From the IMG/VR virus record IMGVR_UViG_3300032236_002285, positions 62,001 through 126,000 of that record: 64,000 bases of DNA; one strand, 5' to 3'. Both the position numbers and the translations under genes were made by a program. Shown here in pieces: positions 2,612 to 36,758 of this stretch (its first letter is position 1; each line of letters opens with the position of its first letter). The notes below the pieces were generated by a model that saw only the letters and a program-made list of their open reading frames with translations, did no database searches and was not told where the DNA came from. The stretch is from a virus.

Positions 2612-3967
2612 ATGGCTGATAAAAAATCTACACGAGTTAAATTTTCTGAAGAATTACATGATTTACTAAGAATCCTTGAGGATGATGGTAGTTATGTTGC
2701 TTTTGAATTACTTTGGTTAAATGAACCAGATTCAAAATATCATAATGGATTAGATGTTGAAGATGTTGATATATCCAAAACAAGATCTTGCTTAGATGTT
2801 AATATTAGAGGTAGAGTTCATCCTATGAAAATAGAAAACTTTATTAAATATTTTTTCAAAAATTATTTCCAATCAGATGTTGTTTTAGATTTTATTGAAC
2901 AATATAACATATTAGCTGGTGGTGGCGGTGAGTTACAAGATACAAGAACTAAAATTATACCAGAACCTTTTAAATATAATCCTAAAGACGTTAGAAGTAC
3001 ATTTATTTCATTAGTTACTAAAACATATCCACACGGACATGAAGAAGAAGTTATGCAGTTTATGCCTAAATTGGATAAAGATTCTGTGGGTAACTATTAT
3101 AAAATTATTGGTGAGAATCCAACAACTATGTTTACATCTCACTTAGATACTGCTGATAGAAAACAAGGAATCACTAAACTTCTTTCAATGAAAGACGAGA
3201 ATGGTGATGAAATTATCTATACTGATGGTTCTACTATCTTAGGTTCGGATGATAAAGCCGGTGTTGCTGTTATGTTATATATGATGGCTCATAATATACC
3301 GGGTCTTTATTATTTCTTTATGGGTGAAGAAAGAGGTGGTATCGGTTCAGGTTTACTTTCTTCTGTGTATGATGAAACTCCTTATCTTAAAAATATTAAA
3401 AGGTGCGTTTCATTTGATAGAAGAGATGTTAAATCGGTTATTACTTCTCAATTAGGTAGAACTTGTTGTTCTGATACATTTGGTACTGCTTTATGTAAAG
3501 AATACAATGCTCATGGTCTTAAATTATCTTTAGATCCTACGGGTATATACACAGATTCTGCTTCATTTATTGACCAGATTCCTGAGTGTACTAACATTTC
3601 TGTTGGTTATTATAATGAGCATACTGGTAAAGAAAGACAAAACATTAACTATTTAGAGAGATTAGCTAAAGCAAGTGTTTTGGTTAATTGGAATTCTCTA
3701 CCAACTGCTAGAAAGATAGGAATTGATGAGGAAGTTATCAGAAAATATGGTAGATTCATTAATGAGCTAAAGGCTACTCCAATGGGAATTGATATCAAAG
3801 TTATGGCTGAAGAAGGTGGTGGTACTGTAATTGCTTGTGATATGGAAGAGGGTTATATTGATGCAACGTATGAGTCACTGACAATGTTACAATTCTTATT
3901 AAATAAACATAAAATCAATCAAACAGTATATTTTGATGGTGATTATATAAAAATAGATTTATCATAA
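2612..3967 (+). CDS. M20/M28-type zinc aminopeptidase-like protein 1
   Basis: 451 residues. The co-catalytic zinc peptidase signature is visible: SHLDTAD near residue 174, LGSDDKAG near 210, MGEERGG near 238 and NEHTGKE near 335. These are the H-x-D, bridging D, E-E and final H positions of clan MH peptidases such as PepT. The first 130 residues and the last 80 are not recognised and may bind a substrate or partner. A shorter paralogue is encoded at 16143. The stop codon overlaps the next start by one base, so the two genes are probably translationally coupled. The substrate is unknown; peptide salvage or removal of a specific host peptide is possible. Confidence 0.8.
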   Translation: MADKKSTRVKFSEELHDLLRILEDDGSYVAFELLWLNEPDSKYHNGLDVEDVDISKTRSCLDVNIRGRVHPMKIENFIKYFFKNYFQSDVVLDFIEQYNILAGGGGELQDTRTKIIPEPFKYNPKDVRSTFISLVTKTYPHGHEEEVMQFMPKLDKDSVGNYYKIIGENPTTMFTSHLDTADRKQGITKLLSMKDENGDEIIYTDGSTILGSDDKAGVAVMLYMMAHNIPGLYYFFMGEERGGIGSGLLSSVYDETPYLKNIKRCVSFDRRDVKSVITSQLGRTCCSDTFGTALCKEYNAHGLKLSLDPTGIYTDSASFIDQIPECTNISVGYYNEHTGKERQNINYLERLAKASVLVNWNSLPTARKIGIDEEVIRKYGRFINELKATPMGIDIKVMAEEGGGTVIACDMEEGYIDATYESLTMLQFLLNKHKINQTVYFDGDYIKIDLS

Positions 3968-5354: not shown

Positions 5355-5873
5355 ATGATTGATAAATTTGAAGGTCGTTGGAGATTTCTTTCTAATTTCT
5401 ATGCTTGTCGTATAGAACACCAAGGTATTACATATCCTTCGGTTGAACACTTCTATGTAGCGATGAAAGTAAATGACCAACAACTAATTGATGGTAGATA
5501 TTACACACCTGGTGATTTCAGAGAAATGATTGCTAGGATTTCTAATCCAGGTTCGGTTAAAAGAATTGGCTCTAAAGTTAAGCTAAGAAGTAACTGGGAT
5601 GAAAAGAAATTAGATATTATGAATTGGGCCGTTCGTCAAAAATTCAAAGATGAATCTTTAGCTCAAATGTTATTATCTACTGATGGTCAGGAATTAATTG
5701 AAGGTACTTACTGGCATGATAAATTCTGGGGTATATGTACCTGTGCAAAGTGTTCTAATAAGGGTGAAAACCACTTAGGTAAGATTCTTATGCAAGTAAG
5801 AGAAGAATTAAAATTAGCACATCAAAAACCTTCAATAGAAGATATAATAAAAGATAAAAATAAATTAAATTAA
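5355..5873 (+). CDS. NADAR domain protein (YbiA/RibX-like, DUF1768)
   Basis: 172 residues from ATG 5355; an upstream TTG in frame adds an unlikely hydrophobic leader and overlaps the previous gene. Diagnostic features are FEGRWRFLSNFYACR at the start, YPSVEHFYVAMK near residue 30, GTYWHDKFWGI near 115 and GENHLGKILMQVREEL near 138. NADAR proteins cleave N-glycosidic bonds, and members paired with DarT1 remove ADP-ribose from guanosine in DNA. A phage copy could reverse host ADP-ribosylation defence such as DarTG, or act in NAD/riboflavin metabolism as YbiA does. The family is clear; the substrate is inferred. Confidence 0.88.
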   Translation: MIDKFEGRWRFLSNFYACRIEHQGITYPSVEHFYVAMKVNDQQLIDGRYYTPGDFREMIARISNPGSVKRIGSKVKLRSNWDEKKLDIMNWAVRQKFKDESLAQMLLSTDGQELIEGTYWHDKFWGICTCAKCSNKGENHLGKILMQVREELKLAHQKPSIEDIIKDKNKLN

Positions 5874-5923
5874 TTTATTTTTTGATAGTAGGTTAAATTA
5901 CTTCGGAGGGAAATGGTATTTTT

Positions 5924-5933
5924 TTATATATAG
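5924..5933 (+). promoter_or_regulatory. Late-type promoter motif TTATATATAG
   Basis: It ends three bases before the homing endonuclease start. Confidence 0.5.
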
Positions 5934-5936
5934 TAT

Positions 5937-6758
5937 ATGAGAAAATTAAAAGACCTATCTGATATTGAAAAATCAGAAATTTTAAATCAAAGAAAACTTG
6001 GAACTACAGAAAAAGAAATATCATCTAAATTTGATATTTCTTTAAGGCAATATTATAACTTATTGAAGCTAAATAACGTTGAAAGAAAAAACAAAGTAGT
6101 TAGGTATAATTTTGATGAAGATTATTTTGAATCTATAGACACTGAAGATAAAGCTTACTTTTTGGGATTTATTGTTGCTGATGGTTGTATTAGTGATAAG
6201 ACAAATACTATTAAGATAATACAGAAGGAAATTGATATATTATATGAATTTAAAAAGTATATTAATTCAGACGGTGGTATATTTACATCAAAAAATAGAA
6301 ATATTTCAAGCTTTAGTGTATCATCTGCTAAGACTAAAGATGATCTTGAAAAGTTGGGAATACATTCAAATAAAACAATGGTTGTTAAATATCCAAGTAT
6401 TCCTGATAATTTACAAAATCACTTCATGAGAGGTGTCTTTGATGGAGATGGTTGTATTACATTGAGAACAGATAAAAGAGACAATCAACAAAGAGGACAA
6501 GTAAATATATGTTCAGGTAGTTATGATTTTATAAAAGAATATTATGATAAATTAGTATTATTTGCTAATTTATCAGGTAGGAATAAAATAAGATGCCCTA
6601 AAGGAACATATCATGTGGTTGACTGGGGTGGTTTATCAGATGTTGAGAATATTTATAATTTTTTATATAAAGACTCAACTATATACCTCAAACGAAAAAA
6701 AGAAACTTTCGAAAAAGTAATTAGTATAACTAAAGATAAAAATAAATATAGAAAATAA
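5937..6758 (+). CDS. LAGLIDADG homing endonuclease with N-terminal HTH
   Basis: 273 residues. Residues 1-45 look like a helix-turn-helix (LGTTEKEISSKFDISLRQYY). Two LAGLIDADG helices follow: YFLGFIVADG near residue 75 and FMRGVFDGDG near 163, each ending in the catalytic acid, so it should work as a monomer. It is free-standing, not inside an intron, and sits between the NADAR and Dam genes with one base before the Dam start. Such genes spread between related phages by cutting genomes that lack them. Confidence 0.88.
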   Translation: MRKLKDLSDIEKSEILNQRKLGTTEKEISSKFDISLRQYYNLLKLNNVERKNKVVRYNFDEDYFESIDTEDKAYFLGFIVADGCISDKTNTIKIIQKEIDILYEFKKYINSDGGIFTSKNRNISSFSVSSAKTKDDLEKLGIHSNKTMVVKYPSIPDNLQNHFMRGVFDGDGCITLRTDKRDNQQRGQVNICSGSYDFIKEYYDKLVLFANLSGRNKIRCPKGTYHVVDWGGLSDVENIYNFLYKDSTIYLKRKKETFEKVISITKDKNKYRK

Positions 6759-34239: not shown

Positions 34240-34296
34240 AACATATAACTTGTCTGTAAATAATCCACCTTTGAAAAAATTGAAATTTTAGAGGTT

Positions 34297-34305
34297 GATA
34301 TATAC
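34297..34305 (+). promoter_or_regulatory. TATATA-type promoter motif before the structured RNA
   Basis: GATATATAC stands where a promoter for the noncoding RNA is needed; it differs from the common motif in its first base. Confidence 0.45.
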
Positions 34306-34319
34306 TAAACAAAATAAAA

Positions 34320-34804
34320 ATTGAATTTTTTTTTGAAGATTTAAAACTTTTTGAATCTTCTTATATAAAAGAAAGACAATTAAATTATTCCAGTAGTGAA
34401 TTGAAGTGTTACTTCGCTAGGATTGAAAAAACACACTTTGATAACTTACTCTGGTCAACATAATTAAAACGCAAGCATAGCGATAGTTTGAGATACTTCG
34501 ATACAAATATCAATTACTATGACAGCCAAAGTGCCGAGCCGACAGCAAAGCTACCACCGACAAGTGTCACACTTGTAGGTTCAATCTCTAACGAGTTTGG
34601 TAAAATGGTGAAAAGTCCGAAAAGCAACCACGTTAAAGGTCTAAGGAATTCAGAAACTTCCTTTAAATAAAGAACTGAGTGAGATAGTCACTATAACCAT
34701 CGGCAAAGTTTCGGGAGAATTCTTTGTAACGCTTAGGCTAAATTTACTTGTTTGCGATAATTATAAAAGACCAGATTAACAGAAATGTTATCTGGTCTTT
34801 TTTT
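34320..34804 (+). ncRNA. Structured noncoding RNA upstream of ro60 (Y RNA candidate)
   Basis: A 600-bp gap without a credible gene ends in a strong terminator and has a promoter-like start. Local stems visible: ACAAGT/ACTTGT (34560), AAGGAA/TTCCTT (34643), AGTGA/TCACT (34678) and CAAAG/CTTTG (34704). TAGG-TTCAATC-TCTA at 34576-34590 is a tRNA-like T-arm with a canonical TTCRANY loop, as in bacterial YrlA RNAs. AAGTGTTAC (34404) could pair with GTAACGCTT (34726). The next gene encodes Ro60, whose bacterial homologues bind Y RNAs encoded beside them. At up to 480 nt it is longer than known Y RNAs. Parts (ACAGCAAAGCTACCACC and GGTAAAATGGTGAAAAG) also resemble RNase P RNA conserved regions, so the class is not settled. 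Confidence 0.6.
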
Positions 34805-34808
34805 TTTG
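34766..34808 (+). terminator. Terminator of the structured RNA
   Basis: AAAAGACCAGAT, loop, ATCTGGTCTTTT followed by a long T tract. Confidence 0.92.
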
Positions 34809-34841
34809 TAAAAAAATTAATAAAAATTAAAAATATAGATT

Positions 34842-36293
34842 ATGTCAAAATTTAACACAACAATGCCAAAGGCAAAGACTTTAACTGAAAACTTAGCAGG
34901 TGGACAAGCTTATTCACAATCTGATGAATTGGCTTTGGTATCACTATTATTAACATCATTTGTTAATGACCAGTTTTATAGAAATGCTCAAACATCATTA
35001 GATGAGTTGAGAAGACTTTCTGCTAAAGTGAAAGATAAAGAGTTTGTTGCTAAGGCGGCTATCTTTGCTCGTGACCGTTTCGGTATGAGAAGTATTACTC
35101 ATGCTCTTGCTGGTGAATTAACTTCACAACTATCGGGTGCTGAGTGGGGTAAAAACTTCTACGACAAAGTAGTTGTTCGTGTTGATGATATGACTGAAAT
35201 CATGTCATACTACTTAGCTTATAAGACTTCTAAAGATAGTCCTAAGTTTCCAAACGCCTTGAAGAAAGGTTTTGCTAAGGCTTTTGATAAGTTTGATGGT
35301 TACCAATTAGCTAAGTACAAAGGTGACAACAAAGAAGTGAAACTTGTTGACTTGGTTAACATTGTTCACCCAGTTCCTACCTTTAGAAACAAAGCGGCTC
35401 TTGAGTCACTTGTTAAAGGTGAGTTGAAAAACACACAAACTTGGGAATCTATGTTGTCTCAAGCTGGTCAAGTAGCTGAGTCTGAAGAAGACTTGACTAA
35501 ATTGAAGTCTGATGCTTGGTCTGAATTGATTTCTACTAAGAAGATTGGTTACTTTGCGCTTCTTAGAAACTTGAGAAACATTATCACTCAAGCCCCAACA
35601 GCTGTTAAATCAGCTTGTGAAATGTTAGTTGATGAAAAGTTGATTAAGAACTCAAGAGTTCTTCCATTCCGTTTCTCAACTGCTTATGAAGAAATCAGTA
35701 AGATTGGTTCTTCTAAAGAAGTAAGAGATGTTCTTATGGCAATTAACCAAGCGCTTGATATTTCTGTTGCTAACGTACCAGTATTTGACGGTGAAACACT
35801 TGTTGTTATGGACGTCTCTGGTTCTATGAGTGGTAGACCATCTGAGATTGCGTCATTGTTTGGTGCTATCTTGGCTAAAGTTAATAACTGTGATGTTATG
35901 ACTTTCTCTACTGATGCTAAGTATATGTCTTATAATCCAATGGATTCTGTAATGACTATTAGAAATAGCTTCAGATTCTCTGGTGGTGGAACAAACTTCC
36001 GTTCTATCTTCCAGAAGGCTAACAAGAAGTATGACAGAGTTATTATCTTGTCAGACATGCAAGGTTGGGTGGGTTATACTAGTCCATCTGCGGACTTTTC
36101 TCAGTATAAAAAGAAATACAGTGCTAACCCATTTGTATATTCTTGGGATCTTGCTGGTTACTCTACACTTCAATTCCCAGAACAAAATGTCTTTGCTTTG
36201 GCTGGATTCAGTGATAAGGTTTTTCAAATAATGTCTCTTCTTGAAGAAGATAAACAAGCATTATTGAATGAAGTCAGAAGCATAAAAATATAA
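34842..36293 (+). CDS. rsr: Ro60/Rsr-like TROVE and vWA domain protein
   Basis: 483 residues. Residues about 15-300 form the helical TROVE ring (RFGMRSITHALAGEL, NALKKGFAKAFDKFDGYQLAKY, MLVDEKLIKNSRVLPFRF), and the C-terminal von Willebrand A domain has a full MIDAS: DVSGSMSG near residue 324, GGGTNF near 382 and LSDMQ near 402. Ro60 holds misfolded RNA ends in its ring and Y RNA on its outer face; in bacteria Rsr partners PNPase and RNases. Mycobacteriophages such as Bxz1 also encode a Ro-like protein. The structured RNA directly upstream is the probable partner. Confidence 0.92.
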   Translation: MSKFNTTMPKAKTLTENLAGGQAYSQSDELALVSLLLTSFVNDQFYRNAQTSLDELRRLSAKVKDKEFVAKAAIFARDRFGMRSITHALAGELTSQLSGAEWGKNFYDKVVVRVDDMTEIMSYYLAYKTSKDSPKFPNALKKGFAKAFDKFDGYQLAKYKGDNKEVKLVDLVNIVHPVPTFRNKAALESLVKGELKNTQTWESMLSQAGQVAESEEDLTKLKSDAWSELISTKKIGYFALLRNLRNIITQAPTAVKSACEMLVDEKLIKNSRVLPFRFSTAYEEISKIGSSKEVRDVLMAINQALDISVANVPVFDGETLVVMDVSGSMSGRPSEIASLFGAILAKVNNCDVMTFSTDAKYMSYNPMDSVMTIRNSFRFSGGGTNFRSIFQKANKKYDRVIILSDMQGWVGYTSPSADFSQYKKKYSANPFVYSWDLAGYSTLQFPEQNVFALAGFSDKVFQIMSLLEEDKQALLNEVRSIKI

Positions 36294-36303
36294 TTATGCT
36301 TCT
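36276..36303. terminator. Inverted repeat formed by two convergent gene ends
   Basis: AGAAGCATAA, 8-base loop, TTATGCTTCT. The arms code for the last residues of Ro60 on one strand and of the HNH protein on the other. It probably terminates both; no strong T run is present. Confidence 0.65.
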
Positions 36304-36758
36304 GGTTTTCTAACCTCATTATTTTCATGTCTTTTTATCCAATTACAATTATGACATAATATTTGATAAGTGTTATCGGTATCCGATAACACTTTTTTGT
36401 AATATGAAAAAACAGATGAACGACTTTTAAGCTCTTTATAACCACCTCCATTTATATGATCTATACATAAAGCTCTCTTGTCTTCAAATCCACATCTTGA
36501 ACAAGAGTGTCCTAGTTTGTCAAATATTTTTTCTTTAATATCACCTAATTTGTCTTTAGACCATTCTTTTTGATATACTCTTCTATAATCCTTATTATTT
36601 TCCTTCCACTCTTTTTGTTTCTCTTTCTTTCTTAAAATTCTTTCAGGATTTTCCAATTTATCCTTTTCATATTTTTTTTTATTTAGAGCTTTAATTTTTT
36701 CTGGATTATTTTTTCTCCATTGTCTAATATATTCTCTTTTTTCTTCTATTGTTTTCAT
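36294..36758 (-). CDS. HNH endonuclease
   Basis: 154 residues. A Lys/Glu/Arg-rich N-terminal half is followed by CSRCGF, LCIDHINGGG and QILCHNCN, the zinc-binding CxxC pairs and the HNH catalytic core. It is a free-standing homing-type endonuclease. It abuts the end of ro60 and is preceded directly by a 46-residue HTH gene, its likely partner. Confidence 0.88.
   Translation of the reverse strand: MKTIEEKREYIRQWRKNNPEKIKALNKKKYEKDKLENPERILRKKEKQKEWKENNKDYRRVYQKEWSKDKLGDIKEKIFDKLGHSCSRCGFEDKRALCIDHINGGGYKELKSRSSVFSYYKKVLSDTDNTYQILCHNCNWIKRHENNEVRKPEA

Follow-up and report, generated by a model that had tools for sequence, protein, structure and literature searches.

The roles ascribed to Y RNAs are gating of the Ro60 ring and recruitment of partners. 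Ro60-Y RNPs function in RNA quality control and, in Deinococcus, in PNPase tethering (PMC4726728), and the YrlA RNAs, which measure 90-150 nt, carry a tRNA-like effector domain (PMC8394870). Ro60 and YrlA of phages are known or have been suggested (PMC7824862, PMC7765460, PMC12282133): TROVE proteins have been noted in jumbo phages (PMC7824862), and for Listeria phage CKA15 the authors suggested adjacent Y RNAs (PMC12282133).

Here we analyzed a 64-kb stretch of DNA (hereafter, the window) that covers positions 62001-126000 in the virus record of a huge phage (476,236 bases). Like Thermus phage phiLo (9l5y), the jumbo phages with TROVE proteins, and Listeria phage CKA15, this phage encodes a Ro60. 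The RNA directly upstream of the gene probably belongs to a phage Ro60 particle as an oversized Y RNA with two predicted Ro60 sites, and the insert of its second Y module would serve as the effector domain (Table 1). Like YrlA (RF02553), it would have a basal stem of 5' and 3' strands for Ro60/Rsr, a distal effector domain, and a gene beside Ro60/rsr; unlike YrlA, which has one stem and a tRNA mimic, it is ~440 nt long, has two stems and a two-pseudoknot domain, and does not match RF02553, although YrlA-type units are present elsewhere in the same phages. A large two-module Y RNA with a phage Ro60 was found neither in Rfam nor in the literature searched, a search that left most subscription papers, including the main ones on YrlA, outside its scope.

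Table 1. Features of the Ro60 locus, in window coordinates.
Feature	Positions	Strand	Description
AT-rich element AATCCACC..GAAATTTT..GGTTGATATATAC, conserved	34262-34305	+	5' of the RNA; recurs in type A relatives by reading
Promoter-like AAACTTTTT-N-TATAAAA	34344-34370	+	Just 5' of Y1; sole match in window, 0.23 expected by chance
Y module 1 (Y1)	34387-34459	+	P1 CCAG 34390-34393 / CTGG 34451-34454; P2 34401-34409 / 34433-34441; TACTTC at 34410
Y module 2 (Y2)	34471-34755	+	P1 GCAAGCA 34471-34477 / TGTTTGC 34749-34755; P2 34484-34492 / 34732-34740; TACTTCG at 34494
PK1, predicted H-type pseudoknot	34541-34617	+	Hairpin-loop GAC 34541-34543 with GTC 34615-34617 after A-run
PK2, predicted H-type pseudoknot	34678-34701	+	Stem AGTG/CACT 34678-34681/34689-34692; loop GATAG 34683-34687 with CCATC 34697-34701
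Hairpin CAAAG-TTTCGGGAGAATT-CTTTG closing the insert	34704-34726	+	Compensatory pairs, RNAalifold on 15 sequences
Intrinsic terminator	34765-34809	+	Perfect hairpin and T-run; 5' arm 34769-34775 complementary to Y1 3' strand 34450-34456
Ro60 (TROVE and vWA)	34842-36293	+	ORF, 483 aa; Pfam, MIDAS residues, AlphaFold model, Foldseek

The gene order at the locus is a ribonucleotide reductase gene, an ORF without a Pfam match, a noncoding gap of ~600 nt, and then Ro60. The Ro60 ORF matched the Pfam TROVE family (PF05731) at 65.5 bits (cut-off, 23), and its match to vWA_Ro60, at 26.9 bits, fell slightly below the cut-off of 27.7. The MIDAS residues (DxSxS; D324, S326, S328, T384, and D405) were invariant among 19 aligned sequences. 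An AlphaFold model of the protein, with an input alignment (A7) made from the window and the related loci, had a mean pLDDT of 82, and the best solved structures that Foldseek returned for it were all Ro60, TROVE, or Rsr proteins, including the Ro60 of Thermus phage phiLo. The product is a full Ro60 with TROVE and vWA domains, as the original prediction had it, down to the intact MIDAS, and we regard the call as secure. Directly 3' of the gene, on the minus strand, lies a 154-aa ORF (36294-36758) that looks HNH-like by eye and had no convincing match in Pfam. Elsewhere among the related contigs, the Ro60 gene is split in L023, L024, and L025, at about 5471-6160, by an insert that contains an HNH/NUMOD3-type ORF and in which no Rfam intron model matched, and the reading frame in contig L017 is broken at 5390-5416, which may reflect gene decay or an error in sequencing.

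The body of the noncoding RNA runs from about 34372 to 34809, directly upstream of Ro60. Folding of 34360-34815 gave -105.9 kcal/mol (z = -4.1), a stability that none of 100 shuffled sequences reached; the structured RNA with a strong terminator that had been proposed here is upheld in its fold and its terminator, and its length is corrected from 480 bases to ~440 nt. A string like the promoter-like sequence is present in many relatives, and from this sequence we infer a transcription start near 34372. The AT-rich element, which has no second copy within 3 mismatches in the 476-kb record, is possibly an upstream promoter or regulator site. The RNA is also conserved outside this phage: a 71% identical copy precedes the Ro60 gene of an uncultured phage of 634 kb, and in about 30 contigs from related phages the RNA lies immediately 5' of Ro60. 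A search with the Ro60 protein yielded 26 viral contigs, with a noncoding gap before Ro60 in those inspected, and a wider search yielded 80 viral and 26 bacterial loci. RNAalifold, run on 15 sequences, identified compensatory changes in 18 of 50 pairs and independently recovered the upper Y1 helix, both Y2 helices, the hairpins, and the terminator.

The two Y modules were recognized by different routes. In distant phages and bacteria (for example Hymenobacter and Clostridium), Ro60 is preceded by arrays of short units that follow one common plan: a basal helix, a GTAGTGA strand, a second helix, TACTTC, a loop, and 3' strands with TTTTCTC. We built a covariance model (R1) from 25 such units of other phages and bacteria, none of which came from the clade of the window. 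These units had 142 double-change cells versus 46 ± 5 in shuffles that ignore relatedness, and the covariation signal was lost when the partner was shifted by one column. Over the 64-kb window, R1 returned a single convincing site, Y1, at 45.5 bits (E = 1.4e-10), with the second-best site at 10 bits (E > 2), and it found the module in all 24 related loci. R1 missed Y2 in the window, presumably because of the long insert: ~230 nt separate the halves of this module, where other Y RNAs have a short loop or a tRNA mimic. Y2 was instead recognized by reading, and the case for it consists of stem covariation and a motif match. With its two strands joined by a spacer, the Y2 stem displayed 23 double-change cells across 17 distinct sequences, compared to 5.5 in shuffles that ignore relatedness. 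When the 68 TACTTC sites of the window were scored by a scheme trained on other Y units, Y2 (41.9) and Y1 (40.0) ranked above the next site (26.0), and the others averaged 4.7 (sd 8.2).

By sequence and covariation, then, the predicted RNA comprises the Y1 and Y2 stems, a two-pseudoknot domain within Y2, and a terminator, in a fixed place upstream of Ro60. It has the basal stem with the Ro60-clade motif that marks Y RNAs (by R1 at Y1 and by stem covariation at Y2), and in the clade of the window it directly adjoins Ro60. Y RNAs are usually about 80-150 nt with one stem, and this RNA departs from them on both counts; as size is only a norm, we limit the claim to a variant of Y RNA. The two Y-type stems, indicated by the R1 match, the covariation of Y2, and the TACTTC ranking, support the pairing of Ro60 with an adjacent candidate Y RNA that had been proposed for this locus.

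The pseudoknots of the Y2 insert were assessed separately. In type A, PK1 spans just 3 bp; among relatives its pairs change in step (AAC/GTT, GGC/GCC, ATCC/GGAT, ACTC/GAGT, and GGTC/GACC, with GAC/GTC in the window). MAFFT alignment across types left the loops out of register, and PK1 was tested by partner swapping: pairing with its own partner scored 162, versus 81 ± 14 with swapped partners (0 of 5000), on segments chosen by eye and with relatedness ignored. PK2 forms 4 of its 5 loop pairs in the window, with one A-C mismatch, and gave 24 double-change cells against 7.8 in shuffles that ignore relatedness. Contig L035, which was left out of the structure derivation, has the RNA and then Ro60, and both pseudoknots fit, with a GAC loop facing GTC for PK1 and GATGT facing ATATC for PK2. 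The insert is thus predicted, with support from covariation, to be a two-pseudoknot domain that has no Rfam relative, which fits the original suggestion that the RNA, being longer than known Y RNAs, might represent a novel class or a fusion with some other function. Upstream of Ro60 in another phage group (L121, L127, L129, and L027), we observed a Y unit whose ~200-nt insert seems to be unrelated; Y RNAs may thus have become enlarged on more than one occasion.

A link to YrlA by tRNA mimicry had also been proposed, on the strength of a T-arm-like TAGG-TTCAATC-TCTA. The string is present at 34576-34590, but this stretch is absent from all 14 aligned relatives, and we therefore consider the resemblance to be due to chance. 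A tRNA search of the RNA found none, RF02553 did not match it, and it has no tRNA-like D, T, or acceptor arms, so that the proposed mimicry falls away for this RNA. Two further resemblances noted by eye were rejected: GAAAAAGTCC recalls a conserved segment of RNase P, but no model matched and the stretch covaries with the PK1 loop, and a possible group I intron core had no match.

Y modules combined with tRNA-like structures do occur elsewhere in the record. One R1 match, at 257506-257624 (locus L152, 1501-1619), is a Y module in a tRNA cluster; its loop contains a tRNA body, which ARAGORN called as tRNA-Leu(taa), and similar units were seen in L180, L181, L184, and L185. Relatives likewise have tRNA-bodied Y modules in tRNA clusters, along with some YrlA-type units. 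In this phage, a YrlA-type unit sits beside a tRNA gene at 233486-233523 (locus L198), with the layout Y stem, T arm, closed acceptor, D arm, and copies of it are found in LR745206.1 and G015. Two tRNA-like genes at ~220253-220396 and ~221076-221203 (locus L154, about 2254-2397 and 3077-3204) have acceptor, D, and T arms; in place of the anticodon arm stands a Y stem with its strands in inverted order. In their secondary structure as drawn by eye, these predicted tRNA-Y chimeras of the 220-221 kb region follow the YrlA plan in circularly permuted form. Three other phages (G006, G008, and G015) have orthologues. Of the two chimeras, the first had the stronger support from single-sequence folding (z = -2.5, versus z = -1.4 for the second). 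The Rfam tmRNA and YrlA models match the two genes weakly; the one RF02553 match in the phage, below the cut-off at 25.2 bits, is a tRNA-Y chimera outside the RNA upstream of Ro60.

Beyond the strands listed in Table 1, the flanking linkers of the Y1 3' strand and the terminator 5' arm also pair. This complementarity scored 316 for own partners versus 263 ± 9 for swapped ones (0 of 5000; relatedness ignored, strands extracted by hand), and it is kept through sequence change in relatives, reaching up to 11 bp in L092. The terminator ends about 33 nt before the Ro60 ATG, which makes read-through a likely source of Ro60 mRNA. The complementarity suggests that Ro60 may attenuate its own gene: the Y1 3' strand would pair alternatively within Y1 or with the terminator 5' arm, so that Ro60 bound to Y1 would favor termination and shut off its own gene in a negative feedback, and the free RNA would favor read-through into the Ro60 gene.

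Such a switch raises the question of whether the RNA is mainly a cis-acting leader, in which Ro60 on Y-like stems controls termination and no separate Y RNP function exists. Its invariable position directly upstream of Ro60, the covariation of the Y1 3' strand with a terminator arm this close to the ATG, and the Y units that adjoin the Ro60 ORF in other phages are all consistent with a leader; however, the conserved terminator would free a discrete RNA, a two-pseudoknot insert exceeds the needs of an attenuator, and some Y modules are located among tRNA genes, a long way from Ro60. We consider a leader alone unlikely. Far more improbable, to the point of being nearly negligible, is that another known structured RNA (GOLLD, ROOL, RNase P, tmRNA, or a group I intron) lies beside Ro60 by chance. 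The RNA is indeed large, structured, and in a phage, and it shares with GOLLD and ROOL the character of a large, ornate noncoding phage RNA; unlike these, it is built on Ro60-type Y stems, which are conserved together with their linkage to Ro60. Nothing in Rfam matched it when the whole window was searched at gathering cut-offs, and covariance searches of the region found no YrlA, with GOLLD, ROOL, RNase P, tmRNA, and introns absent up to E = 10.

The main functional rival concerns what the Y2 insert does: instead of tethering a degradation enzyme, it might be displayed on Ro60 as a decoy or inhibitor of host RNases or RNA-targeting defenses, with pseudoknots in this RNA and tRNA mimics in the other Y RNAs. 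The predicted pseudoknots of the insert have a parallel in type III antitoxin RNAs, which are pseudoknots, and tRNA-bodied Y RNAs lie inside phage tRNA clusters. The tRNA-like domain of YrlA has been proposed as a competitive inhibitor of anticodon nuclease (PMC7790460). Against this, the insert matches no antitoxin RNA family in Rfam by sequence or structure and has no candidate target, and we hold a decoy to be a rather doubtful reading that still deserves some weight.

Returning to the two-site Y RNA, we propose that Y1 and Y2 would dock Ro60 through their stems, in the manner of other Ro60-Y RNPs, and that the Y2 insert would act as an effector domain, which would tether, regulate, recruit, or block another factor and would fill the place of the tRNA mimic in YrlA. 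As in the Deinococcus RYPER (Rsr-Y RNA-PNPase), the Y RNA would by analogy tether an effector to the Ro60 ring (PMC4726728); unlike in RYPER, the phage record has no PNPase domain and the insert has no Rfam match. Neither RNase_PH (PNPase-type) nor RtcB domains were found in the 476-kb record, and the partner is therefore likely to be either an RNA-processing enzyme of the host or some other protein of the phage, an argument whose weak point is that the record is possibly incomplete.

More tentatively, and with appreciable doubt, these phages may have a modular Ro60 system, in which one Ro60 is served by several Y RNAs with swapped effectors that control or decoy RNA processing during infection, autoregulated by a Ro60-sensing terminator. 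The effectors in this modular system would be the two-pseudoknot domain, a YrlA-type tRNA mimic, a tRNA grafted onto a Y stem, and a circularly permuted tRNA in which the Ro60-binding stem takes the place of the anticodon arm. The RNA would add a structured class that is absent from Rfam. An enlarged Y RNA, its defined but variable effector domain, and natural tRNA-Y chimeras, circular permutants among them, are concrete modules for testing, and the chimeras bear on the origin of YrlA-type tRNA mimics.
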